Below are positions 1 to 44,136 of a stretch of DNA of 44,383 nt, piece after piece. Within the stretch, counting starts at the first letter, position 1. The number at the start of each line of letters is the position of its first letter. The notes under the pieces were generated by a model. That model was not told the DNA's origin, ran no database searches, and worked only from the letters and a program-made list of their open reading frames with translations. Source of the stretch: a virus; the IMG/VR virus record IMGVR_UViG_3300009408_000010, positions 1-44,383 of that record. One strand, written 5' to 3'. Both the position numbers and the translations under genes were made by a program.

Positions 1-140
1 CCACGTCACCACGTCACCACGTCACCACGTCACCACGTCACCACGTCACCACGTCACCACGTCACCACGTCACCACGTCACCACGTCACCACGTCACCAC
101 GTCACCACGTCACCACGTCACCACGTCACCACGTCACCAC
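1..140. repeat. Left terminal tandem array, 8-bp unit CCACGTCA
   Basis: Seventeen perfect head-to-tail copies of CCACGTCA plus a final CCAC, running from the first base of the window. The right end (44271-44383) carries the same unit in the same orientation, and both arrays are bordered by CCACGCGGCGGC. Direct rather than inverted orientation fits a circle or terminally redundant molecule opened within the array. The true copy number cannot be known from a contig that ends inside the repeat. Confidence 0.95.
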
Positions 141-167
141 GCGGCGGCTTCATGACGTGGTGACGTG
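130..167. repeat. 12-bp inverted repeat capping the left array
   Basis: Bases 130-141 (CACGTCACCACG) are perfectly complemented by 156-167 (CGTGGTGACGTG), with a 14-nt GC-rich loop. The right arm is therefore about one and a half array units in inverted orientation just outside the array. It could form a cruciform, or bind the same protein as the array from the other side. Function unknown. Confidence 0.8.
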
Positions 168-186
168 TAAGTTATTGATTTTTAAC
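167..186 (-). repeat. Dispersed repeat, left-end copy (inverted)
   Basis: Read on the minus strand this matches the family centred on AAATCAATGACTTACAG found five more times between 39553 and 40481, with one change in the core (AATAAC for AATGAC). It starts at the last base of the array cap. If the genome is circular, copies of this element flank the early region on both sides. Confidence 0.75.
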
Positions 187-245
187 GACTAAGTGATATG
201 AATTAAAATACTTGCGACTTAAATTCGTCGGGAACCTAACGATTG

Positions 246-483: not shown

Positions 484-645
484 TTAGCCTTTAGTCATAG
501 CATTATGTGCGCCAACCAAAGCAACGAACACACTGTAATAAGCCATTAACTCCGCTGGACTGACCACAATACCAACAGCCGTTCCGATCAAAGCCAAACC
601 ACGCCAAGTGGAGAACTCACTCAACCGATCAACCAAATATTGCAT
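484..645 (-). CDS. Holin-like small membrane protein (53 aa)
   Basis: A 53-residue protein starting MQYLVDRLSEFSTWRG and ending NAMTKG. An ATG at 645 is preceded by GGAG nine bases upstream, a good ribosome binding site. Residues about 16-30 and 34-48 are hydrophobic (ALIGTAVGIVV, YYSVFVALVGA) and separated by SPAEL, suggesting two short membrane segments with a short charged N-terminus and a basic tail. It lies back to back with the muramidase gene and points away from it. Small two-segment membrane proteins beside a muramidase are usually holins, which permeabilise the inner membrane to release the endolysin. The family is not recognised by sequence, so the role rests on topology and position. 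Confidence 0.65.
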   Translation of the reverse strand: MQYLVDRLSEFSTWRGLALIGTAVGIVVSPAELMAYYSVFVALVGAHNAMTKG

Positions 646-745
646 AACATATATCTCCAATAATTAAAATCAAATAACAGTCTATCAAGCGTATGCACTT
701 TAACATACTATGACAGAGCAGTTAATCAAAGTAGGGGAAAAACGA

Positions 746-1300
746 ATGAAAAACAATTTCAAAGAAGCACTAAAACACGTTTTGGTTCATGAAGGCGGTT
801 GGGCGGATCACCCCAAAGATCCCGGTGGTGCCACCATGAAGGGGGTGACACTAATCACCTTTCGGCGGCATTTTGGACAGAATCAAAGCAAAAATGATCT
901 GCGTAACATCAGCGATACACAGCTAGAACAGATCTACCGTGAGGGCTACTGGGACAAGTGCCACTGCGATGAACTGCCAGCAGGGGTGGATTATGTGGTC
1001 TTTGATGGCGCAGTAAACTCGGGGTCATGTCGCAGTGCCAAATGGTTACAGGACGCAGTGGGTGCCAAACGTGACGGCATCATTGGTGCAAAAACATTAG
1101 CCAGAGTGTCGGCAGCGGAATCGGCGCAGGTGTGTGATTCGATCTGTGATAAACGCTTGGCTTTTTTGCATCGTCTGCGTACTTGGAGTACGTTCGGTAG
1201 AGGGTGGGGACGACGTGTTGAAGAGGTGCGTAAGGTGGCGTTGGGTTACGCACCCGTAAAAATTCGACAGAAACCATGTGCGGCCAAGGTTTTAGACTAG
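746..1300 (+). CDS. Endolysin, GH108-type N-acetylmuramidase
   Basis: A 184-residue peptidoglycan muramidase. The N-terminal catalytic part holds the GH108 signature HEGGWADHPKDPGG (about residues 15-28), whose Glu is the catalytic acid. The C-terminal half (about 80-150) contains LPAGVDYVVFDGAVNSG and DGIIGAKTL, typical of the GH108 C-terminal peptidoglycan-binding domain. A longer frame opens at 710, but the ATG at 746 has AGGGGA seven bases upstream while the ATG at 710 has none, so 746 is preferred. No signal peptide is seen, so export would need a holin, and a holin-like gene is adjacent. The gene converges with the TraR-like gene, overlapping by 4 bp. A degenerate relative lies at 38858-39220. 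Confidence 0.93.
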   Translation: MKNNFKEALKHVLVHEGGWADHPKDPGGATMKGVTLITFRRHFGQNQSKNDLRNISDTQLEQIYREGYWDKCHCDELPAGVDYVVFDGAVNSGSCRSAKWLQDAVGAKRDGIIGAKTLARVSAAESAQVCDSICDKRLAFLHRLRTWSTFGRGWGRRVEEVRKVALGYAPVKIRQKPCAAKVLD

Positions 1301-5281: not shown

Positions 5282-5514
5282 TTCAAGCTCCCCTGATTTC
5301 CATCTAATTCCCAAGGCATATCACTCCCACAACGAACACATGTCTTGCGAAAAAGTGTCCGCAAGAGAATGAGTTTGTCGTAACCGCAATGCCAGCATGT
5401 TTTCGTTGATTCTTTCCACATGAGTGGGATCTTTACGATCTCACCATCACGTGTTTTTCGGTATTCGTGAGTCTCAGATTTACTCACGAACTCAGACGTG
5501 TCGCGCAGATTCAT
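5278..5514 (-). CDS. Small zinc-ribbon protein
   Basis: A 78-residue protein with a charged N-terminal half and a C-terminal zinc ribbon CWHCGYDK ... CVRCGSDMPW (about residues 39-65), two CxxC pairs about 16 residues apart. Such ribbons bind zinc and often mediate contact with nucleic acid or with polymerase subunits. The start overlaps the upstream stop (ATG at 5514, stop ending 5511) and the end overlaps the next gene, so it is a coupled member of the operon. No family is recognised and the substrate is unknown. Confidence 0.75.
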   Translation of the reverse strand: MNLRDTSEFVSKSETHEYRKTRDGEIVKIPLMWKESTKTCWHCGYDKLILLRTLFRKTCVRCGSDMPWELDGNQGSLK

Positions 5515-5828
5515 GGCTGCACCCCGATAATAGCGGTCGCCGCCATAACCCCGATGACAGTGGTCGCCACCGCCGCCAGAACCCCGATTAGAGTTGCGGC
5601 AACCAATGCAGTGAAATACATACTTGGAGTTAAACGTGCGTTTAACTCCAAGTTCTCCACTGTGTGTCTTAATTCTGCAAGCGTCATGGTTGCCGCAACC
5701 TTGCTGACGTGCATTGTGATTAGTGCTTCGTATTGAGATCGAATATACTCATCCTCACCACTAATCTGCGACATTTGTTCACCCACTACAAGTTTTGTGT
5801 ATTTTTCTCGAACCGTCTCTTCTTTCAT
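5511..5828 (-). CDS. Small membrane-anchored protein
   Basis: A 105-residue protein. Residues 1-68 are hydrophilic and helical (MKEETVREKYTKLVVGEQ, then a possible coiled coil with AELRHTVENLELNAR). Residues about 71-100 form a strongly hydrophobic segment rich in Ala, Val, Thr and Ile (FTALVAATLIGVLAAV) that could be one long or two short membrane passes at the C-terminus. The start is set at 5828 because the primase gene stops at 5830-5832, one base earlier. A longer frame to 5939 lies inside the primase gene. C-terminal anchoring would place the helical part in the cytoplasm. Function not recognised. Confidence 0.65.
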   Translation of the reverse strand: MKEETVREKYTKLVVGEQMSQISGEDEYIRSQYEALITMHVSKVAATMTLAELRHTVENLELNARLTPSMYFTALVAATLIGVLAAVATTVIGVMAATAIIGVQP

Positions 5829-5829
5829 A

Positions 5830-8256
5830 CTAGTCACTTCGTTCGTTGTCTGAGCCGCTATGGTATTCGCTATTGCCTGTGCCGTCAACACCAAAGTTAC
5901 TATACCCTTGAGCCGCTTCGTACATTCGCACAACCTCACGTTGTTTCAAACCCGACGGCATTTCAGATCCGGTTCGTATGAACAGTTTCGGACACGCTCC
6001 TTCGGAAGTCACGGTGCGTGGTGATCGACCTAGCGGCAGATCAGGATGCCATTCGTAACCGAGTTTTTCCAACATCGCCTTCCGCTTATTCAACGGCATT
6101 AAACCCTCAATGCGTTTTTCCGCCATAAGCCTGTTGACCGCCACGCTGCTAACCCAATCACCACGAAAACCCTGGCGACCTTCCTCAATCGCTTCGATTA
6201 TTTCCTGCTCCACGGAACCTAAACTGACCGTGAGTGATTCACTGGTGCTACTCGTTTTCGGTGCGTTCATTCCGGTCGCTGGATCGAACTCCTCCTCAAT
6301 CTTGAGCGTCCGCAACCAGTTATTGCAAATCTCATAGCCTCCAGTGTTCAACCACGTATATAAATCTTTAAAGTACCGGTCGGTCATTCCGTCACGCACA
6401 CGATCCGCTACTGACTGTTGAGGCGTGTAAAAAATCGAATAACGTCTGCCCGATTCCTCGTTCATCAACGCATCCTTGTAGTTGCTGAACATCATCCAGT
6501 TTGCCCAGTTGTCGTCTGTCACCTGATCAGCACCTTTACCTTGAATCTCGATCCGGTCGTTGGTGATCAACGGTTTCAGTGCCTCAATCATTGAGCGTTT
6601 GCTGCTGAAATAAACCTCTTCTAAGGCAATGAATAAACGATTTCGAACCCATGAGTTGAAGTTCGATGAACTTGCTCCAAACCCCTGCGGGTTAGGCGTG
6701 TGCGTGTACCGTTTGCCGACACAGTGGGTGATCACCTTCGCTAATGTCGTCTTGCCGTTACCCTCCACACCCTGAATCAAGGGAGCGTATTGGAATTTCA
6801 CGCCAGGGTTTTGCACCAGAGATGCCATGTAGTTAATGATGATTTTACGGTCTCTGTTGTCTGGGAACAGTTTCTCTATATGGTTCAGAAACGGTGTGGG
6901 ATCTCCTTCGATACTCACCGTTTCGATGTCCTTGTAGATGTTGATCATCTCCAAGCACTCTTCTCGCACTATGCAATGCTCAGGAAGCGCAGGACGAAAA
7001 CATGTGGAGTCTACTTTCGGGAAAACGATGGCTTGACTTTCAGTAAAAATCTCCCAAGCGTTTTTACTCGTCTTATCATTCTGGGAGTCCAACGAAAACA
7101 CCCATCCTCCATACGTTGCGCGAAACTGACTGCTGTCCAGCAGACCGAACTCTGGTGAGTAAATTTTGTTCTGATCTCGAATGTAAACACACCCTCTGAA
7201 GTGTTCGATCTGCTGGGTACCCATCATATAACGAACACCTTCCACAACTCTCGGCTCAAGCGTTGCAGGCAGCGTGTCACCGACGATGATCTCTACCGAT
7301 GTCTTCCCTTGACCAGACCCGTAAACATCGTTACAGCCGTTCACAGCGCCGGTAATTGTAAACTCTCTGAGATACGTCGGGTGAGTAAGCCATTTGTCAC
7401 GTTTGAGAGCCGATTTCCACATCAGCGCCTCGATTCGCGTGTGGTTTTTACCTGTCCAGAACGCCAGATGCGAGGCCAGCGCAGCGTCCGCCTCCGACGC
7501 ACCGAACACGTCGTCGTCGTTGTTGGTTGGGTAAGCCAACGAAAGCACCGCTTCATTTTTCTCCCATAGGTCACGGAACGTCGCACCGTTGCCGAAAACT
7601 GATTTCATGCCTGCTGATTGACACGCACGTTCAATCAGAATCCCATCGTCTACGGCACCGCTCCATTCTGGTACAGGTTCTTCACGCCACGCTTCGATGC
7701 TCACCAGACTTCGGTCTCTAGGGCGAAAACCCTCATGGTTCTGCACGGTTGCAGCGAACGCAACGTCGTGGTTCGTAGATGCGTCACCGACCGTATTCAG
7801 GCCGGTTAATGCACAGAACCGCTTCGTCGTGTAAAGCTCCAAGCCCTGAGACTGATCTCGCGTTCGATGTTCCGGCAGCGACGACAGTGTTCCGATGATG
7901 TGGAGACCGTTTTTACTGCCTGAGACCTCAACCGCCGCACCGGCGAAGTCGTTCATTAAACCTGTTGCGGTTGATGACCACGCCCCGTCAACGAGACAGT
8001 TGTCGATGTCTAGGAAAAAGAACGGGTCGTCCTGAGTGAAGGCGAACCCCACATGGTAATGTTCTCCAGCGCAGCGCACAGCTTCATCAAAACTTAAATG
8101 GATTGATGAATCGTGGGCATCGTGGTTTAGACCCGTTCGCGGATCAACGGTTATTTTATCTGTCTTACCTTTGCGGGTGAGTGACGGACGGACATGATAG
8201 AGAACAAACTGTCGGTGATTTTCCAGTGCTTTAAGTGCTGGCGGTAATGTTTGCAC
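5830..8256 (-). CDS. Primase-helicase (archaeo-eukaryotic-type primase plus SF3/D5-like helicase)
   Basis: An 808-residue replication protein. The N-terminal third resembles the primase-polymerase fold: FFFLDIDNC (about residues 75-83) supplies the acidic metal pair and SGSKNGLHI the following His motif. The middle and C-terminal parts look like a D5/VapE-type SF3 helicase, with a Walker A GVEGNGKTTL near residue 497 and LFIALEEVYF as the Walker B region, then MMFSNYKDALM and SGRRYSIFY for later sensor and arginine motifs. It would unwind the phage origin and prime synthesis for the polymerase encoded on the plus strand. The downstream gene begins 1 bp after its stop. Confidence 0.85.
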   Translation of the reverse strand: MQTLPPALKALENHRQFVLYHVRPSLTRKGKTDKITVDPRTGLNHDAHDSSIHLSFDEAVRCAGEHYHVGFAFTQDDPFFFLDIDNCLVDGAWSSTATGLMNDFAGAAVEVSGSKNGLHIIGTLSSLPEHRTRDQSQGLELYTTKRFCALTGLNTVGDASTNHDVAFAATVQNHEGFRPRDRSLVSIEAWREEPVPEWSGAVDDGILIERACQSAGMKSVFGNGATFRDLWEKNEAVLSLAYPTNNDDDVFGASEADAALASHLAFWTGKNHTRIEALMWKSALKRDKWLTHPTYLREFTITGAVNGCNDVYGSGQGKTSVEIIVGDTLPATLEPRVVEGVRYMMGTQQIEHFRGCVYIRDQNKIYSPEFGLLDSSQFRATYGGWVFSLDSQNDKTSKNAWEIFTESQAIVFPKVDSTCFRPALPEHCIVREECLEMINIYKDIETVSIEGDPTPFLNHIEKLFPDNRDRKIIINYMASLVQNPGVKFQYAPLIQGVEGNGKTTLAKVITHCVGKRYTHTPNPQGFGASSSNFNSWVRNRLFIALEEVYFSSKRSMIEALKPLITNDRIEIQGKGADQVTDDNWANWMMFSNYKDALMNEESGRRYSIFYTPQQSVADRVRDGMTDRYFKDLYTWLNTGGYEICNNWLRTLKIEEEFDPATGMNAPKTSSTSESLTVSLGSVEQEIIEAIEEGRQGFRGDWVSSVAVNRLMAEKRIEGLMPLNKRKAMLEKLGYEWHPDLPLGRSPRTVTSEGACPKLFIRTGSEMPSGLKQREVVRMYEAAQGYSNFGVDGTGNSEYHSGSDNERSD

Positions 8257-12821: not shown

Positions 12822-13610
12822 ATGAAGATTGAATTTGATGCAAATGAAAACCCAAACGTGTACCGCGCAATCGCTGCAATGTGCAATGAATTGGGTCGCC
12901 ATGTCGATGACGAAACTCCTGTCGTCATCGAGACACCTGTCGTCACTGAGACTCCCGCACCTGTCGTCACTGAGACACCTGTCGTCACTGAAACACCTGT
13001 CGTCACTGAAACACCTGTCGTCACTGAAACACCTGTCGTCACTGAAACACCTGTCGATTCGGCAGGGTTTAAATGGAACGCGGAAGTTTGCTCCTCAACG
13101 ATGAGCAAAAAGAAAGATGGCACTTGGAAGCGCAAGCAGGGTGTTGAGCCTAGTGAATACCTGCGTATGCTGAAGTCTCAGTTGCCCACGGTCACTGAGA
13201 CTCCCGCACCTGTCGTCACTGAGACTCCCGTCGTCACTGAGACTCCCGTCGTCACTGAGACTCCCTCACCTGTCGTCACTGAGACTCCCTCACCTGTCGT
13301 CACTGAGACTCCCTCACCTGTCGTCACTGAGACTCCCGCACCTGTCGTCACTGAGACTCCCGCACCCGTCGTCACTGAGACTCCCGCACCTGTCGTCACT
13401 GAGACTTCAGCACCTGTCGTCACTGAGACTCCCGTCGCTATGGACTGGCCTTCAATCCTGAAAATCGGTGCAGCCGCACACAAGGCAGGTTACACACGGG
13501 ATCAGATCAATGGATGGTGTAAAGGGTGTAACCCACCCTGTGAATCGTTCAGTCACTTGATCAACCGACAAGACCTGTGGGAATTCTTTAAAGAGGCGTT
13601 CAAGCAATGA
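12822..13610 (+). CDS. Repeat-rich phage replication-operon protein (PVVTET repeats)
   Basis: A 262-residue protein. A short N-terminal region (about 1-28) is followed by Pro-Val-Val-Thr-Glu-Thr repeats. An insert at about 82-120 holds FKWNAEVCSS and KKKDGTWKRKQG; this matches the short motif (W-x-x-x-x-H/C-x-x-S...K-x-DGTW-K-x-K/R-x-G) seen in many phage proteins encoded near DUF2800 genes. A second repeat block follows, then a C-terminal helical domain ending LWEFFKEAFKQ. The repeats are probably flexible acidic linkers joining two small domains; their near-identical DNA suggests copy number changes easily. First gene of the rightward operon. Function of the motif domain unknown. Confidence 0.8.
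   Translation: MKIEFDANENPNVYRAIAAMCNELGRHVDDETPVVIETPVVTETPAPVVTETPVVTETPVVTETPVVTETPVVTETPVDSAGFKWNAEVCSSTMSKKKDGTWKRKQGVEPSEYLRMLKSQLPTVTETPAPVVTETPVVTETPVVTETPSPVVTETPSPVVTETPSPVVTETPAPVVTETPAPVVTETPAPVVTETSAPVVTETPVAMDWPSILKIGAAAHKAGYTRDQINGWCKGCNPPCESFSHLINRQDLWEFFKEAFKQ
12912..13052 (+). repeat. Coding tandem repeat, block 1 (18-bp unit)
   Basis: About seven units, mostly of the 18-bp form ACACCTGTCGTCACTGAA, one of them extended by CCCGCA to 24 bp, encoding PVVTET. Units are multiples of 3 bp, so gain or loss keeps the frame. Confidence 0.9.
13189..13436 (+). repeat. Coding tandem repeat, block 2 (24-bp and 18-bp units)
   Basis: About eleven units, mainly the 24-bp form encoding PAPVVTET or PSPVVTET. 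It is the same repeat family as block 1, separated from it by the non-repeat domain of about 45 residues. Confidence 0.9.
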
Positions 13611-15106: not shown

Positions 15107-15966
15107 TCGTATTTCCAATGGGTCGCATGGTAGGCGGTGATCTCTATACCCCGAACGATACTAAATATGACAGCGACGAGAAACTTGCTGGAGGTCGCGT
15201 TGAGTACATCTGCGTTTGTGCCATCCCGAAGCAGGGTGAGAAGAACTGGTGGGAGACAGTGTGGGGGGCTGAAATTAACACCATCGCATCCAATTCGTTC
15301 ATCAATGGTGAAACTGCGCGTCTCGATTTCAGTTGGAAAATCGTGGATGGTGATTCCGCGATCCCCAACAAGCGCAATGTCACACCAGCATCAAAAGAAG
15401 GTTTCGCTGGTAACTGGGTGATCACTTTCAAAAGTGGCTTTCCTCCGAAACTGGTAAACGAAAACGGCAGCAAGCTACTTACTGCCGAAGGCGCTATCAA
15501 AAGCGGCTACTTCATTCAAGTCATGGGAGACCCAACACCCAATAATCTGAAAAGCGTCCCACAAACACCTGGTATGTATCAGAACTTTAGCGCCGTGTCG
15601 TTACAGGCTCTTGGTAATCTGATTGTAGGTACCGAGCCTGTCGATACTGCTGGTGCTGGTTTTGGTGGTGCGACTCTACCTGTTGGCGCAACTGCCGTAC
15701 CGGAAGGTTTTGGTGGCGCAACTGCCGCCACAGAAGGTTTTGGTACCGCACCGGCTGTGGCTCCCGCACCGGCTGTGGCTCCCGCACCGGCTGTGGCTCC
15801 CGCACCGGCTGTGGCTCCCGCACCGGCTGTGGCTCCCGCACCGGCTGTGGCTCCCGCACCGGCTGTGGCTCCCGCACCGGCTGTGGCTCCCGCACCGGCT
15901 GTGGCTCCCGCACCGGCTGTGGCTCCCGCACCGGCTGTGTTTGATCCGACAGCAGACGTTCAGTAA
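15103..15966 (+). CDS. DUF2815-like putative ssDNA-binding protein with Ala-Pro-Val repeat tail
   Basis: A 287-residue protein. The first about 160 residues are beta-rich ([40 protein letters not shown]), and with [11 protein letters not shown] resemble phage DUF2815 proteins, thought to be OB-fold ssDNA-binding proteins. A Gly-rich linker (AGFGGATLP) leads into about eleven APAPAV repeats and the acidic end FDPTADVQ. An acidic tip on a flexible tail is typical of SSB proteins that recruit partners. CGGAG lies eight bases before the ATG, which overlaps the 36-aa gene. Confidence 0.8.
15748..15939 (+). repeat. Coding tandem repeat, 18-bp unit
   Basis: Ten identical copies of GCACCGGCTGTGGCTCCC plus a partial eleventh, encoding the AP-rich tail of the DUF2815-like protein. 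Perfect identity, including third codon positions, suggests recent slippage or conversion. Confidence 0.95.
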
Positions 15967-22100: not shown

Positions 22101-25100
22101 CTTGAGTTTCGTTTCACCGAGTATTTCTTTTACAAGCGTCGCGTCGAGCCGTTGGCCAGTTTCTTTCAGTGTGGTGCGAATTGAAAACACAGGTTCGCTG
22201 ATGAGTGTTTTCTTGACTTCCAGTTCGATCAGTCGGCGTTCATCGTTCCATTTTTTACGACGCGCCACGGTGAGTTGTTTCGTAAGCTTCTCTTCGGCGG
22301 TAAATGCTGCACGTTCTTTGCGTTTGGCTATCAGTTTCTCATAGCTTTTGAACGTTGTGTCGCTCATTCCAGCGCGATCCCCTGATTTGAAATACTGCGC
22401 GTACTCAGGGTTCGTTTCGACCTCTGCGATCACTGCGTCAACGGCGAGCATTCGGTCAAACACTCCCTTGATCTCAGGTGTAAAATGTGCGCGTGGACGG
22501 CGTGGCATGAACTTCGCCAACCATTTAGCAAACTGGCGAAACATGGACTTGAGCGCGGGACTGGGTGCTTCACCTATTTTTGTATAAACCTCAAATGTCT
22601 CAGCGAATTTTTCGTGGTGTTCGGTTGTGATGTCTTCAAGTTTTCCGCTCTTAATACCCATCCATTTAAGTGTTTTTTTATGATCTTCGGTAACACCAAA
22701 CTCAACGGCTGCTTGGCGTTCAAACTCTAAGAACAGGTGTGCGAATTCATGTATTGACGTGTTTCGCGTTGCTATTCCGTCGATGAACCCAATCGCTCTA
22801 GCATGTTCGCCTGTGCTGTTGTCAGTGCGGAATGCCATGAACCCTTTCAGCGTGGGTGTAAGGGATTCACGCTTTTGCAGCGCCTTCTGGTCGGGGCTGA
22901 GTTTCGCATACTTGATGTCAAGCTGCTTCTGAATTCGATCCTCAATGACTGGATCACCTTTCGGTAAAACCCGAACATTGATGCGCTTGTCCACCTCTTC
23001 TGGTGTAAGGTTCAGCAGTTCACTCTTGGTTTCAACAAACGCTGCATACATTCGTGCCACGTTTGTTGCGACCGTTTTGTTGTACACCTCAGACGACATA
23101 ATCTCGTTCGTGACACGCGCATGGATTTTCTTCAACGAGGCGACGTGGGCTTTCTTTTTGACTACGTTTTCTGCCAACTCTTTCAGATTCGTTTCATCCA
23201 AACGCTGTGTGAGTTCATGTCTGGTAAACCCAGAGTCACGCAGTTTAATGTGATCACGCAGACCGTTTAACACGGGTTCGTTTCCAACCACTTCTTTAAT
23301 AAAAGTTTCAGCGTTGATGGTTGCCCCACCTGACTCACTCAACACCCTGGCGATTGCGTCAGGTATGGTTACACCCAAGTTCTCAAGTTCCTGAATGCCT
23401 TCCTCAGTGATGTAAACCTCTTGTGATAGTGAGTCCGTAAACTGCTTGAATTCCGTAGGCGCTTCATTGTGGATCGTCATGTCAGACGTTGCGTTAATCA
23501 CCGCGTCGATTCGTTGTAGATCGTCTACAGCCCGAAACCGTGACTCAACGGCACGAACCTTGGCGTTATGATACGCCCGTGCCGGAGTGCTGACAGCTGT
23601 CACCGAGCCTGATGTAACTGAGGATGAAACCAGAGTGAACGCCTGACGCTTCGCTTGTATCGCTACAGCTTCTTGAAACGTCTCTGCGTTCGCCAATTCA
23701 ACATCCAGACCGAAACCCAGATCAGAAACCGTGTTCAACGCTGTATCCACCTGCTCACCCAGTGTATCGGTGAGGATGAATTTTTTAACAGCGTTGGTAT
23801 TACCGCTGAGAACGTCATTGAAATATTTCAGCGGTAATACCTCCGTGGCGTAGGATGACAACATTGAGAGTGATGCGCGATTCGCAGACCGTGCTGGCGA
23901 CTCACCAGCCTTTCGTGATTTACCGTATTGATCCAAACCCGCAAGCCCTGTAAGCACAGGGAGCGCACCAAACGGTGCTGAAACGGCGAGATCGGCAGTG
24001 CTGAGAATACCCGCGTTCAATGCTTCACCCAGAAATGTGAGGTCTCTAGGGGTTAGTGATTGAATCTTACGGTCAGATTCGTTGAGCGTTTTTAGAATCT
24101 CTTTGCCGAAAGCATTCTGCGCTGCGACTGACTTCTCTTTCGTCCATGTGGGGTTGCTGGCCATCGCCGCTGCTTTTGAGGACTCAAAATCTAAGAACAA
24201 CGACGGGTCTATATCGGAGTGGGCGGTCGAGTCATTGGCGGCCTGAAACGCTATTTTACCGCGTTTGATCCACGACTCGACCCACCGCTCACTCAGGTTC
24301 TTGAAGTCACGGGTCGGGTCGAGTTCCCACCACGCACGACCATCCGCGCCAACACCTGTAATGTCTTCGCCTAATTTAAAGGCGTTCATGAACGACTCAT
24401 TTACATCTGAGAAAAATTGAGTTGCCTTCGCGCTCCCAGTATCAACGCCACCGGATAACTCAGACACCAGAGAACTCACCCGCGCCGAAACGTCGTCGAG
24501 TGCTTGAGTTGCCTTCGCGCTCCCAGTATCAACGCCACCGGATAACTCAGACACCAATGAACTCACCCGCGCCGAAACGTCATCGAGTGCTTGAGTTGCC
24601 TTCGCGCTCCCAGTATCAACGCTGCCTGATAACTCAGACACCAATGAACTCACCCGCGCCGAAACGTCATCGAGTGCTTGAGTTGCCTTCGCGCTCCCAG
24701 TATCAACGCTGCCTGATAACTCAGACACCAATGAACTCACCCGCGCCGAAACGTCAGGTTTGTTAACCGTAGCAGCACCTGACGTTGAATCAACGCCAGT
24801 AAACGCCTTTTCGATGGATTGCATCTGTACCACATCTGGTGCCACGACAGCGGCCACATGTGGTGATTTAATCATGGCGGCAAGCTTGGGCGTGGATGCG
24901 ACATCTACCTCTTGTGTTTTGGCTTTAGCCTCAAAAGATGCAACGTCTTGTTCGACCAGATCCGTAGGCAGTGAAACGGCCTCGCTCACTCTGGACACCC
25001 TTCGCGCCTTTTCACTGTCACCCTTGAACCCGTCACCGAGCAGCGACTTGGCAATGTAATCACGCCCTTCGTTTGGGTCAATGTTGTCTGAGTCAATCAT

Positions 25101-34074: not shown

Positions 34075-35081
34075 GACTTGAACGCCGACTGCGTTTTGAT
34101 TAACTGGACGTACCGTTTACGGTCTTCGGCGGTGTACGACTTGGTTCCCATCTTATCCTTGATTGATTGAATCTCAGTGGCCATCGCTTGTGCCGGATTG
34201 TTTGAGTTCGGCACCACGGTCGCAGCGGGGTTAATCTTACGACCCATGTCTGCTAACCACACCAGCACTTCTGGTGAGTTTGCCAGCAGACTGCCGTCGG
34301 CCAGAGTAGCTTGGGAAAACCCGTCACGCACCGATTCAGGTAGTTGACTGATCATGTTATTCACGATGTTTACGTTTGTGGCTAACTCCCCTCCCCATGT
34401 TTCCTGCAAAACCTGAGTCGAGTTCTGCATATCAGTTGTGTGACGGGTTGCTTGCACCTGTGCTTGCACCTGACGTTGTGATTCAACCTGACCCAAGATC
34501 GCATCCAGTGCAGGTTTGCTGACGTTATTTTCCAGTGCAGCTTTGCCAACACTGTCGAACAGCGCCTTATCATTATCGCCCACGGCGACATCGGCAAAAT
34601 ACCCGTCAACATTTAATGGAACACTGTTTGCTGTGCGCCACTCTGAGAGCTGTTCGGCACTTGGGTTCTCTGGCAGCCCGTTAGACAGTTCACCGCTGCG
34701 AATCTGACGCTGGCCAGCAATGAACGACTTCACCAACGAACCGATGTCGCCGTGGCGATTCAGCATGTTCAACGCCTTGTCATCACCTGTCAGATTCGCA
34801 GCAGCAATCAACTGATCCCTCCAATCATCCGGCATTGATTTGTAGAACGCTGCTGCTGGTGCCGCTGGTGGCGTTACGTCTGCTGCTGCCGCTGCTGCTG
34901 CTGGTGCCGCTGGTGCCGCTGCTGCTGCTGGTGCCGCTGGTGCCGCTGCTGCCGCTGGTGCTGCTGGTGCTGCTGGTGCCGCTGGTGGCGTTACGTCTGC
35001 TGCTGCCGCTGCTGCTGCTGGTGCCGCTGGTGGCGTTACGTCTGCTGCTGGTGGAACAGTACCGAGGACTGTATTAGACAT
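34071..35081 (-). CDS. Scaffolding protein with Ala/Pro-rich N-terminus
   Basis: A 336-residue protein. Residues 1-80 are low complexity (ADVTPPAAPAAAAAA repeats). A conserved-looking part follows: FYKSMPDDWRDQLIAAANL, LNRHGDIGSLVKSFIAGQ and WRTANSVPLNVDGY, as in podophage scaffold or head-assembly proteins. The C-terminus has SYTAEDRKRYVQLIKTQSA, a basic helical segment suited to capsid binding. Position between portal and capsid matches T7 gene 9. AAAGGA precedes the ATG. The repeats may vary in number without loss of function. Confidence 0.8.
   Translation of the reverse strand: MSNTVLGTVPPAADVTPPAAPAAAAAAADVTPPAAPAAPAAPAAAAAPAAPAAAAAPAAPAAAAAAADVTPPAAPAAAFYKSMPDDWRDQLIAAANLTGDDKALNMLNRHGDIGSLVKSFIAGQRQIRSGELSNGLPENPSAEQLSEWRTANSVPLNVDGYFADVAVGDNDKALFDSVGKAALENNVSKPALDAILGQVESQRQVQAQVQATRHTTDMQNSTQVLQETWGGELATNVNIVNNMISQLPESVRDGFSQATLADGSLLANSPEVLVWLADMGRKINPAATVVPNSNNPAQAMATEIQSIKDKMGTKSYTAEDRKRYVQLIKTQSAFKS
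34848..35050 (-). repeat. Ala/Pro-coding low-complexity repeat in the scaffold gene
   Basis: A mosaic of GCTGCTGCTGGTGCCGCTGGT units interspersed with three copies of GGCGTTACGTCTGCTGCTG. All indel steps are multiples of 3, so the frame is preserved. It encodes a disordered, probably spacer-like N-terminus. Confidence 0.85.
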
Positions 35082-35316: not shown

Positions 35317-36820
35317 CGCGGTTTCCCTTGACTGTTTCAGGTGAGTGTAACCACCCTTGAGGCGAACCAATGCCCTCAACGGCATCACGGAACGCTGCTT
35401 CCACGTTTACGTTATCTCTCAGTTCAGGTGCCACTTGTGCTGACTCAGCTAACATCCCACCAACCTGTTTGAACATTAAAGCTTTGTTCTCCTCCTCTGC
35501 TGCTGACAGTGGTGAAATGAACTTGAACTTAATATCACGACCTGATAACGAGTCTGGAATGTCGTAAGCCGAACCAAGCAGTCCCGCGTCCATCGCAATC
35601 GTGAACGCCTGCTCACAGAGTTGTCCGTTGTACTCAGCTTCAAGAGGTGCAAACAACGGCAACGCTTCGCGGCGGAACTGTTTCATACGTTCCTGAACTT
35701 CGTAGGCGGTCATATTGCCACCAACGGCAGGTAAATTCAACTTGTCTAGGTAAAACGAACTGGAGATGATACCGATCATGTCGTTATACATCTGCATTCC
35801 GATAGGCCAACCACCCCGATCCTGACCGAGTGTATCAACAGCCTTACCGGTTCGTTGATCATAGTCATCATCAATCCAAGTAACGCCATCGGCCTGCAAG
35901 TCCAAACCGTTACTGACCGCATTCCTTGTGGCCACAATGGGTGGTCGGGCGTATCTCTCACCTGCCTCAAGCAGTGTGTGGGTCATCGCCTGTAGTGCGC
36001 GACTGTCGGGTAAGCCCGTCATCGTTGCTGGACTGTAGGCGTAAGGGCTGCCGGAGATCGTCTGAAACCGTGGAATAATGTAATACTTATGGTTGATACC
36101 GACGGCTTCAATTAAGTGCTTGTGGTCGGCATCAACGAAGACACTGACGTAGGGTTCCTTGATACCACTGTCACCGTACATCTCAGACGACATCACGAAG
36201 TGGCGAATGTCCGCCGTGGCGAAAGGGTCTTTTGCGTGTTTCTTTAACGTGTCTTGATGTAATCGTTCTTGTCCGAAAACAGTCACCAACTGGTGTAATT
36301 CAGGTTTCCATCGGCGTGTAACACCACCGACATCACCGTTCTCGTCGTCGTACCACGCGCAATCGCGTAGGTGCCATGACCGGAATAATAGGCCGTCATG
36401 ACTTTGGTTGACTTCACAGGATATTACACACTGGCCGAATGCTGCGTAATCATGGTCGCCCTCTTTCGTGGCGCGAGTGAAACCGGCATCGCGTCGGTCA
36501 ATCAAACCCCGAAGTTTTCGGGTACCCCACTGTAACCAACCACGACCTGCGCTGTCAGGCTCTTCGTCTGTCACACCCATTTTAAACCATTCGCCGTCAC
36601 GCAACATCGCGTGAAAGGAATTCGCTAAATCTCGTCGTGCTAACACAGGGTATGAGTTCGCCAGATTACCCGCGACTTCAGCACCCACGTTTCGTGTGAT
36701 TGTAAAATCAGCACGTTCAGGGTAAAAGTGATCAGCGATTGTCTGCCATAACGGTAATACCATTCGCTGAGTGTCGAATAACTTATCGCTGCGCTGCACC
36801 ACCATGTCAGGACTCATCAC
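35252..36820 (-). CDS. Portal protein (head-tail connector)
   Basis: A 522-residue protein that should form the dodecameric portal ring through which DNA is packaged and ejected. Typical parts are the start VQRSDKLFDTQRMVLPLWQ and ADHFYPERADFT, then RDLANSFHAMLRDGEWFKM, the stretch SPATMTGLPDSRALQAMT before the long alpha helix, and LNLPAVGGNMTAYEVQERM (crown side). The length fits T7 gp8 (536). It lies between the terminase and scaffold genes; the start overlaps the previous stop (ATGA). Confidence 0.9.
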   Translation of the reverse strand: MMSPDMVVQRSDKLFDTQRMVLPLWQTIADHFYPERADFTITRNVGAEVAGNLANSYPVLARRDLANSFHAMLRDGEWFKMGVTDEEPDSAGRGWLQWGTRKLRGLIDRRDAGFTRATKEGDHDYAAFGQCVISCEVNQSHDGLLFRSWHLRDCAWYDDENGDVGGVTRRWKPELHQLVTVFGQERLHQDTLKKHAKDPFATADIRHFVMSSEMYGDSGIKEPYVSVFVDADHKHLIEAVGINHKYYIIPRFQTISGSPYAYSPATMTGLPDSRALQAMTHTLLEAGERYARPPIVATRNAVSNGLDLQADGVTWIDDDYDQRTGKAVDTLGQDRGGWPIGMQMYNDMIGIISSSFYLDKLNLPAVGGNMTAYEVQERMKQFRREALPLFAPLEAEYNGQLCEQAFTIAMDAGLLGSAYDIPDSLSGRDIKFKFISPLSAAEEENKALMFKQVGGMLAESAQVAPELRDNVNVEAAFRDAVEGIGSPQGWLHSPETVKGNRDARTRNAAIEQAGISSVQGAV

Positions 36821-37053
36821 AACGGCGAGTCCTGACCGTTGAGAACCGTTGATAATCGCCCACCAGCAGAGCGGGATCGCATCCGACGTTCGACTTCGTT
36901 TCGTCGCTTGGTGTTTTCAGGGTCAGGGTTTTCAACGGCATTCATGATCTTTTCCTGTAACGCCTTTAGGGTATTAGCCGCCGTTGCTTCTGGCGCAGCA
37001 CTGGATGCGACGGCTTTCCCTGTGCTGGCGAATGGTACAAATAAATCACTCAT
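36817..37053 (-). CDS. Small protein between terminase and portal genes
   Basis: A 78-residue protein: MSDLFVPFASTGKAVASS, an Ala-rich helix (APEATAANTLKALQEKIM), then a basic segment (NTKRRNEVERRMRSRSAGG). The ATG at 37053 has AGAGGG eight bases upstream; the frame opens at a GTG nine bases earlier. The basic tail could bind DNA or the acidic face of the portal. Family not recognised. Confidence 0.6.
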   Translation of the reverse strand: MSDLFVPFASTGKAVASSAAPEATAANTLKALQEKIMNAVENPDPENTKRRNEVERRMRSRSAGGRLSTVLNGQDSPL

Positions 37054-37081
37054 TGCCAACACCCTCTTATTTCACTGAACA

Positions 37082-38476
37082 TCAGTAATCACCTCTGTCA
37101 AATCGCGTGAGAGACCGCGCCACGCGCTTTACTGCTGGTGGTCTCCATGTGTCGTTCATCATAACTCCGTGTTCACCACCTGTCGAGGGTGCTTCCTTTA
37201 TTATCCGAGGGAACAACTCTGTCAACGCCCAAATCATCGCATCGGCACGATCTGGTGATCGTGTACCCACATACCCGCTTGTTGTCATCCCACATAGCTG
37301 ATCTTCGATCTCTGGGAAATACCCGATGTGGTGGACGTAGCCCTGCTCATACAGTGTGGCAATTGGTTCAGCCCGTACATGTTTACCACGGGTGGCCGTC
37401 ACGGTTTTATACGGCAGTGCGCGATTCTTAGCCTGTAACACGGCGCGAACCATGTCACCACCGTAGTTCGCCTCACCTACGATTATATCGGCTCTGTGGC
37501 GACTGTGGGCAGCGTTCACCACGTCTGCCCACTCTTCGGGTGAGTGGCGACCCGACAAGTCTTCGATTACATACGCCCGACCGTTGGTACCCAGCTTAAC
37601 CACGACAATACCCACCTCATCGCTGCGCGAATCTTCACTGCCCTGACACCCTGACGGGTCAACAGCGATCACCACTCTAACGAATTCAGGTACCGAACCG
37701 GTTTGCCCAAGCACACGCTGCTGCTGTAACAACTCTTCTGACCACAGTTGTCCTTCTGAGTCATCGGCAAACTTGCCAAACAGGAACCGATTCCGATCCC
37801 GCTCCGACATTCCGTTCAGAATATTCAGATACTCAGGTGAAATATTCTCAGTGTTATCAGCAGGGTTAATCAGGTGGAACCCGTAATTGAATTCGTTAAG
37901 AACCGGTGCGCGTGTCACGGGCGACTTCTTATCCAGAAACAGAACATACGTCCAGTGTTTTTTGCTGGGTGGGTTAAAGTCATAATACGCTCTGGGTTTC
38001 AATGGCTTCCCATCACGGCCTGCGACCAATTGTGCGAGACGTGAATGCGCCAATTCAACTGAACGCCACGGTATCTGACTACACTCATTGAAATACAATG
38101 TGACGAACTCCATACCAAGAATTTTCTCAGTGCGGTCTTTGTCGTCGAGGCCAGCAAACCACACCTCAGAACCGTTTGGCAGTGTCATGAACCAATCGGT
38201 GCGATTGAGCATTTCATTAAGTGGAGGGAGTTGAGGGAAACACAGGCTCAACACTTTCGGGAGTGTGTCACCAATAATAGATGCTTTGAGTGCGTTGAAA
38301 CGAAATCTGAACACTACATGCCTAGAACCCGCTGAGGTGATTGCCCGTATTAAAAGCATTCGCACCAGGAAAAACGTCTTCCCTGAACGAGATCCGCCAC
38401 CCAACGCGGTGTGGGTGGCGGAAGATGTCACTAAGTCACGGGCTTTCACCTGCGCTTTAGTGAGTTTGAAGGCCAT
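37082..38476 (-). CDS. Terminase large subunit
   Basis: A 464-residue packaging ATPase and nuclease. The Walker A is GGGSRSGKT (residues about 26-34), the Walker B LYFNECSQ with catalytic Glu (about 129), and the coupling region FNPPSKKHW. The nuclease domain begins with VVIAVDPSGCQGSEDSRSD (first Asp about 265) and later has IVGEANYGGDM and SPDRADAMIWAL (final metal Asp). All landmarks are intact. The small subunit is not adjacent: it lies about 1.3 kb upstream beyond three small genes. Confidence 0.93.
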   Translation of the reverse strand: MAFKLTKAQVKARDLVTSSATHTALGGGSRSGKTFFLVRMLLIRAITSAGSRHVVFRFRFNALKASIIGDTLPKVLSLCFPQLPPLNEMLNRTDWFMTLPNGSEVWFAGLDDKDRTEKILGMEFVTLYFNECSQIPWRSVELAHSRLAQLVAGRDGKPLKPRAYYDFNPPSKKHWTYVLFLDKKSPVTRAPVLNEFNYGFHLINPADNTENISPEYLNILNGMSERDRNRFLFGKFADDSEGQLWSEELLQQQRVLGQTGSVPEFVRVVIAVDPSGCQGSEDSRSDEVGIVVVKLGTNGRAYVIEDLSGRHSPEEWADVVNAAHSRHRADIIVGEANYGGDMVRAVLQAKNRALPYKTVTATRGKHVRAEPIATLYEQGYVHHIGYFPEIEDQLCGMTTSGYVGTRSPDRADAMIWALTELFPRIIKEAPSTGGEHGVMMNDTWRPPAVKRVARSLTRFDRGDY

Positions 38477-38482
38477 TGATTA

Positions 38483-38842
38483 CTATTTACCTTTAACCTT
38501 ACGGAATCGCGCCTGAAACTCTTTGTCGCTGAGTACGAACTGCTTAGAGTCGCTTCGGGTGGACTTCATGACCCAATCGCCATCTTCTAGGTCTTTAATG
38601 CCACCCTCAACTAAGTTGATGTAGACCTTACGATCTTCTGGGTCTTCTTTGTAGTCTGGGTTATCGTCGCCACGATCATTCTTTTTTTCACGCTCATGGC
38701 GATCATGGATAGTGCTGTCATCTCGGTCTTCGTCAAAATCCTTTTCGGCAACACCAGCCAAAAACGCCTTAGTTGCTTTTTTAGTGGTTTTACCTTTTAC
38801 GAACTGTTGAGCTACAAACTGCTCTGGAATTTCTTCAAACAT
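38483..38842 (-). CDS. Highly charged small protein upstream of TerL
   Basis: A 119-residue protein. The N-terminal third is neutral (MFEEIPEQFVAQQFVKGK). The middle is a run of Asp, Glu, Arg and Lys (DEDRDDSTIHDRHEREKKND) that is probably disordered. The end (KDLEDGDWVMKSTRSDSKQ, then FQARFRKVKGK) may fold. The ATG at 38842 has GGAG six bases upstream, preferred over 38854. It lies directly before TerL. Unrecognised; an assembly or packaging cofactor is conceivable. Confidence 0.6.
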   Translation of the reverse strand: MFEEIPEQFVAQQFVKGKTTKKATKAFLAGVAEKDFDEDRDDSTIHDRHEREKKNDRGDDNPDYKEDPEDRKVYINLVEGGIKDLEDGDWVMKSTRSDSKQFVLSDKEFQARFRKVKGK

Positions 38843-38857
38843 TTCAATCTCCAAAAA

Positions 38858-39220
38858 TTACAGGTTTCTAAGCACCCAGTGTAAATGTTCCCGCAAACCG
38901 TAGTCAACAACAGATGCAATCACACATGTGGCATCGCGGATGGTGATTGCATTCAGTGTTTCCGATGTCATTGTCCCTGTCTGCTCAACATCGAGACACT
39001 TCTGGACGTGTTTGAAAACATCAGTCACGCTCATGTGCATGGATAACTCCAGCATGACCACAGCCCAACGCGGCGGTAACTGAGCGCAGTATAGCGGCTG
39101 CCAGTTCAATGCTCTATATAAGGACTCTAATTCCTCTGAGAATACCGGTTTGATTTTTTTTTGGTCGCCCTCCATTTTTTTTGGAGGGTTAATCGCGTTG
39201 AGTGCTTCGATCAGGGTCAT
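38858..39220 (-). CDS. Degenerate GH108-like protein (C-terminal domain only)
   Basis: A 120-residue protein that aligns without gaps over a key stretch with this phage's own muramidase: LYRALNWQPLYCAQLPPRW here against IYREGYWDKCHCDELPAGV there (shared YR, W, C, LP), continuing through VVMLE/VVFDG, VQKCLDV/LQDAVGA and TGTMTSETLNAI/DGIIGAKTLARV. The N-terminal catalytic EGG segment is replaced by an unrelated lead (MTLIEALNAINPPKKMEG), so it should lack muramidase activity. It could bind wall fragments, act as a regulator of lysis, or have been recruited to packaging. Its ATG overlaps the upstream stop of a holin-like gene. Confidence 0.65.
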   Translation of the reverse strand: MTLIEALNAINPPKKMEGDQKKIKPVFSEELESLYRALNWQPLYCAQLPPRWAVVMLELSMHMSVTDVFKHVQKCLDVEQTGTMTSETLNAITIRDATCVIASVVDYGLREHLHWVLRNL

Positions 39221-39414
39221 CGTTTTTCAAACGCTACCATCAGCACTGCACTCAGCGCACTCAGCGCACTCAGCGCAGCAATCAGGTTCGGCACGATTGC
39301 TGATAGGGCGCTCGCCGCTTCGAGGATGTTGAGCTGGTCAGTCTCAGTCAAGGCAATGCTGGACACGCTGGAAGCGATTGAGACGATGAGTGCGATTATG
39401 ATTTTGGTTTTCAT
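39217..39414 (-). CDS. Small two-segment membrane protein, holin-like
   Basis: A 65-residue protein with two hydrophobic segments: about 3-21 (TKIIIALIVSIASSVSSIA) and about 38-61 (AIVPNLIAALSALSALSAVL), joined by a short acidic loop (LTETDQLNILEA) and ending EKR. Size and topology suit a class II holin or antiholin. It is coupled by a 4-bp overlap to the degenerate muramidase, repeating the holin-plus-muramidase theme seen at the left end. The ribosome site is weak. Confidence 0.6.
   Translation of the reverse strand: MKTKIIIALIVSIASSVSSIALTETDQLNILEAASALSAIVPNLIAALSALSALSAVLMVAFEKR
39246..39283 (-). repeat. 9-bp coding repeat (SAL units)
   Basis: GCACTCAGC recurs head to tail about three to four times within the second membrane segment of the holin-like gene. 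Each copy adds SAL, so unit gain or loss would lengthen or shorten the membrane helix in steps of three residues. Confidence 0.8.
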
Positions 39415-39492
39415 GGGTCAGAGTGTATTTGGTTTTGGGTGAGTCGTCAAGGGTGACGCGAAACTTAGCGACATTGTGCGAACGTTTGGCTC

Positions 39493-39528
39493 AGGGGGGG
39501 TGTAAGTGGCCGACCCCCCTCTTTTTTT
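39493..39528 (+). terminator. Intrinsic terminator-like hairpin (plus strand)
   Basis: AGGGGGG (39493-39499) pairs with CCCCCCT (39514-39520), followed at once by CTTTTTTT. In the plus direction this is a classic rho-independent terminator. Every gene around it is on the minus strand, where the hairpin has an A-run before it and no T-run after. Confidence 0.65.
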
Positions 39529-39552
39529 AGGGTGATAGTACTCTAATTCACC

Positions 39553-39574
39553 GTTAAAAATCAATGGCTTACAG
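39553..39574 (+). repeat. Dispersed repeat copy
   Basis: Member of the AAATCAATGACTTACAG family, with GTTAA before the core and one change (GGCTT for GACTT). Located in the TerS/holin-like gap. Confidence 0.8.
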
Positions 39575-39637
39575 GCATACCGCTTATTCAGGGGGTGGGT
39601 TGATTATGAGGTGACGAAAGGTTGAGAACTGAAAACC

Positions 39638-39659
39638 GTTTAAAATCAATGACTTACAG
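39638..39659 (+). repeat. Dispersed repeat copy
   Basis: A 22-bp match to the dispersed family with an exact AAATCAATGACTTACAG core, 85 bp from the previous copy (start to start) and in the same orientation. Confidence 0.85.
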
Positions 39660-39751
39660 TTATTCAATTTTCATGATTATAGGCGTAATCATGAAAACGC
39701 ACCAGCGGATGCGGTGCGTGGTGGTGAGGCGTGGTGGTGAGGCGTGGTGCG

Positions 39752-40135
39752 TTACGCCTCAAGATCCTCAGATTCAATCACAATGGGAATCGCCTTGGTC
39801 TCGATCCGCTGAATATCCTGATAATCGTCGTCTTTTCGACATCTCAGAATGAATTCTGCCCCTTTGCTGCGGTTAATCACGGCCTGCCCTACTAATTGGT
39901 TTTCGATTACTAGGTTAAATTCCGCGCACACAGCCGCAAACGCGGGGCGCTGTGCATACTCCCAAAACGATTTTTTTGCACGGAGACCCAACGCAACGCA
40001 GACCCCCGCCACGGTTGTAACCCGTAACAGCCCGTCACTATTGTCCTGAATGTACTTCCTCACAATTTTGTTAAATCGTTCAACGTCGCTGGGAACGTCA
40101 GGGTTGAATTTCATGTCGCGTCTATGTTTGGCCAT
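39752..40135 (-). CDS. Terminase small subunit
   Basis: A 127-residue protein matching the pattern of small terminase subunits: VTTVAGVCVALGLRAKKSF followed by WEYAQRPAFAAVCAEF, a DNA-binding helix-turn-helix in which the phage skips stretches of its own genome, then NLVIENQLVGQAVINRSK and AEFILRCRKDDDYQD. It should recognise the packaging site and load TerL. The start at 40135 (MAKHRRDMKF) has GAGG ten bases upstream; a longer frame to 40192 lacks one. Separation from TerL by three genes is uncommon. Confidence 0.8.
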   Translation of the reverse strand: MAKHRRDMKFNPDVPSDVERFNKIVRKYIQDNSDGLLRVTTVAGVCVALGLRAKKSFWEYAQRPAFAAVCAEFNLVIENQLVGQAVINRSKGAEFILRCRKDDDYQDIQRIETKAIPIVIESEDLEA

Positions 40136-40212
40136 GTTTTGAATACCTCGGTTAGTGTCCACACAGCATACGCCGCAACCGATGGTGACCACAAGGCCGT
40201 TAAGAAGCGAAT

Positions 40213-40230
40213 GAAATCAATGACTTACGG
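40213..40230 (+). repeat. Dispersed repeat copy
   Basis: GAAATCAATGACTTACGG, the core with one terminal difference, 78 bp upstream of the TerS start. Confidence 0.75.
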
Positions 40231-40266
40231 AGCAGCGGCGAGTTGAGAACTTAGTGCAGAACCCAG

Positions 40267-40286
40267 CTAAGTCATTGATTTGTAAG
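40267..40286 (-). repeat. Dispersed repeat copy (inverted)
   Basis: On the minus strand it reads AAATCAATGACTTAG, facing the copy at 40213 and making an inverted pair about 55 bp apart. Confidence 0.75.
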
Positions 40287-40459
40287 GGTTTAAGGCGTTC
40301 AACTTCTCAACTTCTCAACTTCTCAATGGAGTGAAACCTATATGCATATGTGTACATGTAATACATGTATGCATATGTAATACATGTACATACACTATTT
40401 GTATGGCACAGTTATATATATATATAGTTAAGAAGTTAAGAAGTAAAGAAAAGAAGATT

Positions 40460-40481
40460 GTTAAAAATCAATGACTTACAG
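40460..40481 (+). repeat. Dispersed repeat copy
   Basis: A full 22-bp match to the family with the exact core AAATCAATGACTTACAG, placed just after the AT-rich tract. Confidence 0.85.
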
Positions 40482-40539
40482 CAGGTTCTTAAGAATCTAC
40501 TGTAAAGAAGTGAGTTGAGAAGTTGAGAAGATTTCCGCC

Positions 40540-40657
40540 CCACATACCGAACATGTGGCTACATACCGAACATGTGGTTACATACGAACCGCGCCTACAC
40601 GCGAACCGCGCCTACACATACAGAACATGTGGCTACATACGAACCGCGCCTATCAAC
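40540..40657. repeat. Mosaic repeat with ACATGTGG hairpins
   Basis: CATACCGAACATGTGGCTA (two copies) and CATACGAACCGCGCCTA (about three related copies) are interleaved. CCACAT at 40540-40545 pairs with ATGTGG at 40553-40558, and later copies can form similar stems. It covers the end of the early operon and may serve as a terminator-like or protein-binding block. Confidence 0.6.
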
Positions 40658-40881
40658 AGAACAGCCGCCACGCCCTCGGTGCTAAACGAGGACACGGCGC
40701 GAACCGCGCAGCGATCTGTAACATAGTCAACTTCAGCGGCGGAAAACCACCCACCGCGTGGTAACGTGCGAGTTTTCAACCAATTTTTGACCCGTGCTAA
40801 CACGCGGTGCGCGTATTTTTTGGCTATCAATTTATCTGCTAATAGTTTTCTGATGGTGCGGACGGCGGTATATGCGTTCAT
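40633..40881 (-). CDS. Small basic protein, last gene of the early region
   Basis: An 82-residue protein with a basic helical first half (MNAYTAVRTIRKLLADKLIA, then HRVLARVKNWLKTRTL) and a less polar C-terminus (STEGVAAVLLIGAVRM) that runs into the repeat block. It has its own operator-bearing promoter 33 bp upstream. No clear ribosome site or known family. DNA binding is possible from composition only; the last 8 residues may not be conserved, since they lie in repeat DNA. Confidence 0.5.
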   Translation of the reverse strand: MNAYTAVRTIRKLLADKLIAKKYAHRVLARVKNWLKTRTLPRGGWFSAAEVDYVTDRCAVRAVSSFSTEGVAAVLLIGAVRM

Positions 40882-40913
40882 AATCTAGGCTCTTGGTTAG
40901 TGTGTAGGCCGTT

Positions 40914-40941
40914 ATTATACACCGTAAAAATTACGGCGCAA
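40914..40941 (-). promoter_or_regulatory. Early promoter P1 with spacer palindrome
   Basis: Minus strand: TTGCGC (40936-40941), 16-bp spacer, TATAAT (40914-40919). The perfect palindrome CCGTAA-AAA-TTACGG (40922-40936) fills the spacer. It drives the gene starting at 40881. A protein bound here would block polymerase directly. Confidence 0.8.
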
Positions 40942-41923: not shown

Positions 41924-41989
41924 ATTAGTATTACTCTCTGTTGTTGGTGCCGCATCGGTTGATACGGCGGTTAGTGTGTGTAGGCCGCT

Positions 41990-42017
41990 ATTATACACCG
42001 TAATTTTTACGGCGCAA
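41990..42017 (-). promoter_or_regulatory. Early promoter P2 with spacer palindrome
   Basis: Minus strand: TTGCGC (42012-42017), 16-bp spacer, TATAAT (41990-41995), with CCGTAA-AAA-TTACGG on the minus strand (41998-42012). It drives the clamp-like gene and the ArdA-motif gene. Confidence 0.8.
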
Positions 42018-42030
42018 TAGCAAATAAAAA

Positions 42031-42528
42031 TTAGGCATTGTAAAACGCATAGGCGTTGATGATGATCACCCCCGAACCCAGCGCCTCGCACTCGTCCGTT
42101 TTTACCAGATCATCAAAAACGCCCTCCCAGTCTGTGTTATATAACGCCCAGTCGGGTATAGATTCCCCCGAACAATCCTCGATATATGTTTCTGCACATT
42201 CGGCGCGGGTACCCTCAAATATCTCAGCCTCTTGTAGCAGTCTCACCAGTCCGTTACAAGAAGTGCCCTGAAGGTCAACCAGCCACGCAAGCACCTCCAG
42301 TTCTGTATCGCCCAACCCCTCCCAAAGCTCGACCCATAGACGCAGACCCCCAACCGTGGCCACATCCTCACCGCTCCGCTCAATCAGCCGCCACGCCGTC
42401 ACGTCATTTGGTGTGACATCGTCTAGGGTGTGCAGATCAACACAGTCAGAGGCTGATGCTGCTACTGCTGCGAGTAGTTCGGTGGCTGTGCCGACCAGAC
42501 CAGTTTTCAGATTTTTAAATTTAATCAT
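42031..42528 (-). CDS. ArdA-like antirestriction protein, paralogue 1
   Basis: A 165-residue acidic protein. The middle and C-terminal parts follow ArdA: VATVGGLRLWVELWEGLG (as TSIGELNRLWEMVSELP in the Tn916 protein), a helical stretch LEVLAWLVDLQG, then FEGTRAECAETYIEDC and SIPDWALYNTDWEGVFDDL, the counterpart of the A-x-x-Y-x-E-x-x-G...P...Y-x-D-Y-x-A-x-x-R-D-L end. The first ArdA domain (AYNxG) is replaced by MIKFKNLKTGLVGTATELL. ArdA mimics DNA to block type I restriction-modification enzymes. Downstream of the 42839 gene under P3. Close paralogue at 42924-43421. Confidence 0.8.
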   Translation of the reverse strand: MIKFKNLKTGLVGTATELLAAVAASASDCVDLHTLDDVTPNDVTAWRLIERSGEDVATVGGLRLWVELWEGLGDTELEVLAWLVDLQGTSCNGLVRLLQEAEIFEGTRAECAETYIEDCSGESIPDWALYNTDWEGVFDDLVKTDECEALGSGVIIINAYAFYNA

Positions 42529-42839: not shown

Positions 42840-42882
42840 GATGTCCCCCCCCTTGCCCGTATGGGCGTGTGTGTAGGCCGCT

Positions 42883-42910
42883 ATTATACACCGTAATTTT
42901 TACGGCGCAA
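42883..42910 (-). promoter_or_regulatory. Early promoter P3 with spacer palindrome
   Basis: Minus strand: TTGCGC (42905-42910), 16-bp spacer, TATAAT (42883-42888), palindrome at 42891-42905. About 75 bp around it are almost identical to the P2 region, including the 3' ends of the flanking ArdA-like genes. Confidence 0.8.
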
Positions 42911-42923
42911 TAGCAAATAAAAA

Positions 42924-43421: not shown

Positions 43422-43481
43422 TTTATGTAATCCTTACGCCGTAGCGTGTAAAAGTTGCCGCAATGTTGCGGCATGGGGGTT

Positions 43482-43509
43482 AGTATACACCGTAATTTTT
43501 ACGGTGCAA
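43482..43509 (-). promoter_or_regulatory. Early promoter P4 with spacer palindrome
   Basis: Minus strand: TTGCAC (43504-43509), 16-bp spacer, TATACT (43482-43487), palindrome CCGTAA-AAA-TTACGG (minus) at 43490-43504. A slightly different -35 and -10 from P1-P3 may set a different strength. Confidence 0.78.
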
Positions 43510-44098: not shown

Positions 44099-44136
44099 TT
44101 TGTAGCCTCTCTGTTGTTGTCGTTGGTGTGGCAGCT

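Follow-up and report, generated by a model that had tools for sequence, protein, structure and literature searches.

Both ends of this viral record (44,383 bp, the whole of which we call the window) lie in pure arrays of one 8-bp unit. The best explanation, and in our judgment the probable one, is that the record ends mark an assembly break within a single intergenic tandem repeat, grown by slippage, in a circularly mapping and repeat-rich podovirus. We infer the single array, the circular map and the array length from the assembled record alone. The same orientation of the two arrays, the border motif that they share, and the gene content suggest that assembly broke here and that the virion does not end here. 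The features at the two record ends are:

1-141, plus strand: octamer array (CCACGTCA)17.6 at the contig start, 100% matches by TRF.
44269-44383, plus strand: octamer array (CCACGTCA)14.4 at the contig end, oriented as 1-141, 100% matches by TRF.
137-148, plus strand: border and loop motif CCACGCGGCGGC, left copy.
44257-44269, plus strand: border motif ACCACGCGGCGGC, right copy.
153-167, minus strand: inverted cap TGACGTGGTGACGTG, forming a 15-bp stem with array positions 122-136 around a 16-nt loop.
168-187, plus strand: GTAAGTTATTGATTTTTAAC motif, with close variants around the TerS-side arrays (39540-40480).
44209-44256, plus strand: second CCACGCGGC copy and a 10-nt inverted repeat, GCTTCGCGCG/CGCGCGAAGC.

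The original prediction described pure arrays in direct orientation at both window ends, and this holds on the same strand at either end. TRF reports the left array as CCACGTCA x17.6 and the right as CACCACGT x14.4, with zero indels; both are head-to-tail identical 8-bp units, as in an octameric VNTR. Matches to 16-base double units (at most 3 mismatches) numbered 34, against 0.78 expected from shuffles. Outside the end arrays, CCACGTCA occurs once on the plus strand (12022) and its complement twice, at 153 in the cap and at 20831. Three reading frames run open through the array solely because the octamer contains no stop. The predicted border also stood, since CCACGCGGCGGC flanks each of the two arrays, and the window has exactly two copies of ACCACGCGGCGGC, at 136 and 44257, one at the inner border of either array.

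Arrays in direct orientation would be expected of a circle, of a concatemer or of a direct terminal repeat, but not of telomere-like ends. Repeat tips on a linear genome, which the original prediction had entertained, are therefore close to excluded: pure short repeats do stand at both record ends, but telomere-like tips should be mutually inverted and these are direct, and no telomere protein was found among the annotated genes. The longest overlap of the two ends is 113 bp. Joining 44383 to 1 without overlap leaves the units one base out of phase, and an overlap of 1, 9 and so on up to 113 restores the phase.

How would a contig come to begin and end in the same repeat? If the assembler's k-mer or the reads were shorter than the array, the contig would start and stop inside it. 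We modelled a circle in a toy de Bruijn graph; with an array longer than k, it gave one contig with the array at both ends. The toy graph predicts equal array lengths, whereas 141 and 115 bp are observed; we assume trimming or path extension, and the exact lengths are thus uninformative. The earlier argument that a contig breaking inside an array implies a long one is probably right, as the array closes in direct orientation and likely exceeds what the reads could resolve. More generally, viral contigs tipped by arrays in the same orientation can mimic terminal repeats, and the real ends may lie elsewhere.

The gene content looks like that expected of a whole podovirus of about 44 kb. The window encodes an endolysin, a class I RNR, a primase, an endonuclease, thymidylate synthase and a MazG-like pyrophosphohydrolase; further replication genes (helicase, exonuclease, Gp2.5-like SSB, B-type DNA polymerase); and T7-like virion genes (tail fibre, internal virion proteins, tail tubes, capsid, portal and both terminases). 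We found no close relative among isolate phages, a search of viral contigs with the capsid protein returned no relatives, and the RNR search returned distant viruses only. The junction is flanked as follows:

484-660, minus strand: 58-aa ORF reading towards the array, holin-like by eye and without a Pfam match.
710-1300, plus strand: endolysin (Glyco_hydro_108), reading away from the array.
43802-44098, minus strand: first small ORF of a leftward early-like block, reading away from the array.
44123-44164, minus strand: promoter- or operator-like repeat TACACCGTAAnnnTTACGGCGCAA, one of five copies, most of which precede minus-strand small ORFs.

The directions of these ORFs place the array in a gene-free gap separating transcription units. 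On one side is the end of the lysis region and on the other the promoter region for the small, early-like genes that read leftwards and start behind one of five copies of the TACACCGTAAnnnTTACGG repeat. The five TACACCGTAAnnnTTACGGCGCAA copies (40900-40941, 41976-42017, 42869-42910, 43468-43509 and 44123-44164) look like a shared promoter or operator. Within the early-like block, 41974-42140 and 42867-43033, and likewise 42246-42468 and 43142-43364, are 86-92% identical, a recent tandem gene duplication.

The location of the junction counts against an assembly break, in that T7-like phages also have their ends between the end of one transcription unit and the start of the next. In T7 and T3, short repeat arrays adjoin the direct terminal repeats, and the arrays here could accordingly be short repeats beside or inside such terminal repeats, serving in concatemer cutting and packaging. 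T7-like virion genes, direct orientation, an end overlap of up to 113 bp, and short direct repeats lying between the late end and the early start of a podovirus all agree with this idea, and a unique terminal repeat could hide between two arrays that the assembly failed to cross. We nevertheless regard it as unlikely. The terminase is of a different type: TerL is a Terminase_6C/Terminase_3 protein and TerS a weak GP3_package match, below its cut-off, a pair that leans to headful packaging. Moreover, a like element lies beside TerS in a relative (below), and the ends are known here from the assembled record. TerL matched none of the solved structures, and its relatives in CRP-6, Mae-JY09 and Ssp-JY42 are too distant to indicate natural ends.

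That relative, L023, is a 4.5-kb viral contig with 99% identity to window positions 36420-39751 and 88% to 39742-40785. Its coverage stops short of the window ends, and the comparison is confined to the TerS side. Directly 3' of the TerS stop codon, L023 carries a related array (CACGCCTCACCAC, CACCGCATCACGCC), preceded by GCGTGATGCGGTGCGT - CATCACGCGGCGGCACCACTTCACC - ACGCACCGCATCACGC, a perfect 16-bp stem with CACGCGGCGGC in the loop. The window has a smaller counterpart, so the TerS-side array differs in length between the two phages:

39716-39749, minus strand: short related array of 13-bp units (GCGTGGTGGTGAG) that closely follows the TerS stop; at this site L023 has the larger capped array.

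Two close phages thus carry a module of array, CACGCGGCGGC and inverted arm at two different sites, and the stems differ in sequence. The capped array beside TerS in L023 indicates that the element is not tied to genome ends, where a T7-type element should be confined in relatives. The original prediction's proposals of a packaging site, an origin or a recombination site are conceivable but found no positive evidence, and they face this like element at another site.

Because the lineage carries such arrays at more than one place, the record could also be a fragment running between two different arrays of one repeat family, and not a circle. We consider this distinctly unlikely given that the gene content looks complete and that ACCACGCGGCGGC is common to both borders. 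Less probable still is an iteron-like replication origin or protein-binding array with TGACGTGG sites. Regular 8-bp direct repeats adjoining an inverted copy would suit such a role, but iterons usually measure 17-22 bp, cumulative GC skew makes no origin-like turn or sign change at the record ends, an initiator gene is absent among the array's neighbours, and the related array in L023 lies elsewhere with a different unit.

An assembly break would account for the record ends, and the inverted cap is a further feature of the left array. An inverted copy does close that array, as originally predicted, although it is 15 nt long (153-167) and not 12. It is a perfect complement of array positions 122-136, and the stem folded as single-stranded DNA gives z = -4.5. 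No intrinsic terminator was called at the cap, and no T run directly follows the stem. None of 36 CCACGTCA arrays tested elsewhere (0/36) had an inverted arm clearly longer than the shuffled control, which makes the cap particular to this phage lineage. The 16-mer CACGCGGCGGCACCAC matched 33 viral contigs, with an array alongside only in L023, and none of the matches to GTAAGTCATTGATTTTTAAC was to a relative. Only the recurring module of array, CACGCGGCGGC and inverted arm is really unusual, and any function of it is putative.

A cap and a spacer specific to this lineage point to something beyond slippage alone. A lineage-specific module of octamer array, CACGCGGCGGC loop and inverted array arm might arise at, or move to, various intergenic sites, its stem rebuilt from the local unit; we hold this only tentatively and think it fairly unlikely. 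A stem that persists (15 and 16 bp) despite a changed sequence could be either a functional hairpin or a fold-back footprint. If functional, the hairpin could mark a transcript end or be a replication or packaging signal; otherwise it would be the footprint of the fold-back mechanism that created the array. A hairpin-capped array that varies in place and unit between relatives could serve the study of array birth.

The L023 contig opens, at positions 1-38, with a CRISPR repeat resembling type I-E (GTGTTCCCCACGACCGTGGGGATTAACCG), fused to phage sequence. The fusion is perhaps an assembly chimera of spacer and protospacer, and it offers a lead to the host; an exact copy of the repeat was absent from the genome contigs searched. 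Upstream of TerS in the window, 40260-40644 is dense in the small repeats TCAACTTC, AGTTAAGA and ACATACCGAACATGTGGCT, interleaved with GTAAGTCATTGATTTTTAAC.

Under the assembly-break explanation, the array would have grown as the phage replicated, through slippage or unequal recombination, and the other arrays of this genome probably grew likewise. The 15-nt inverted arm may have been left by fold-back, by a template switch or by an older inverted copy, and it could pair with the array edge as the hairpin described above. Its putative function, if it has one, would be that of a hairpin-array serving as a non-coding element that separates transcription units.

The window is rich in tandem repeats. 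TRF at score 50 finds 14 separate arrays, whereas the rate in 81 other viral loci (1.13 Mb) predicts 1.7 (P ~4e-9). A single control locus (L051) reaches a comparable richness; the array load is thus unusual and not unique. Array periods within genes are 9, 15, 18, 24, 30, 45 and 87, all divisible by 3, and those between genes are 8, 13, 17 and 19, none of which is. Such a split is expected from selection against frameshifts when arrays grow anywhere, and together with the 14 arrays it indicates that array growth acts genome-wide. The junction is therefore notable, as the original prediction of a striking genome feature had it, but chiefly it marks where assembly broke within an intergenic repeat that can expand, with other arrays throughout the genome. 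In-frame tandem repeats occur in four genes (12912-13434, 15684-15939, 24417-24756 and 34851-35050). The SSB is one of the four, with its repeat in the C-terminal part, and the gene preceding the capsid is another; the array at 39248 falls within a 65-aa ORF.

These properties recall known systems. In Borg elements, which carry many arrays, the period is a multiple of three within genes and mostly not in intergenic stretches (PMC9879509). The window resembles them in holding many arrays in one extrachromosomal genome with the same split of periods, and differs in being a small podovirus with GC-rich units, without terminal inverted repeats and with an unrelated genome. Membership among the Borgs, which are huge, linear and archaeal with terminal inverted repeats, is ruled out by a 44-kb podovirus with T7-like virion genes; what we describe is Borg-like growth of tandem repeats in a small phage genome. 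The HOOF-Print loci of Brucella are octameric VNTRs of variable copy number, attributed to slipped-strand mispairing (PMC1183211). The phage element shares their pure 8-bp tandem arrays, but it has another unit, is phage-borne, bears an inverted cap and a CACGCGGCGGC border, and is known here from a single assembled copy.

The octamer itself is found well beyond this phage. The genome collection contains 34 stretches with three or more CCACGTCA units in tandem. Their sources include Streptomyces, Burkholderia, Alcaligenes (264 bp), a planctomycete (416 bp) and Omnitrophota, and two unrelated viral contigs have such arrays too. The presence of these arrays on bacterial chromosomes shows that such an array requires no phage end. 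On the other strand CCACGTCA reads GTGACGTG, and it belongs to the GTGACNNN unit family, of which two Omnitrophota genomes hold dozens of arrays with many NNN variants. The phage array shares its unit family with these bacterial arrays and differs from them in that they are chromosomal and have no long inverted arm beside a CCACGTCA array. In broader samples, 274 genomes from the class to which the Burkholderia genome belongs yielded 3 with the four-unit pattern (reversed control, 0), and 97 from the phylum of the Omnitrophota genome yielded 5 (reversed control, 1), each count taking in the chosen centre genome.

In the two Omnitrophota genomes, the GTGACNNN arrays (loci L158-L184) are scattered, often in facing pairs. 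Some look as if they sit in frame within genes, and one locus, L164, looks by eye like dapF with a 24-bp insert. Several octamer arrays with different units (GTGACNNN, GCGCAACC and CCGTTTCA) cluster in the unrelated viral contig L022, at 5443-5707 and 6068-6099.
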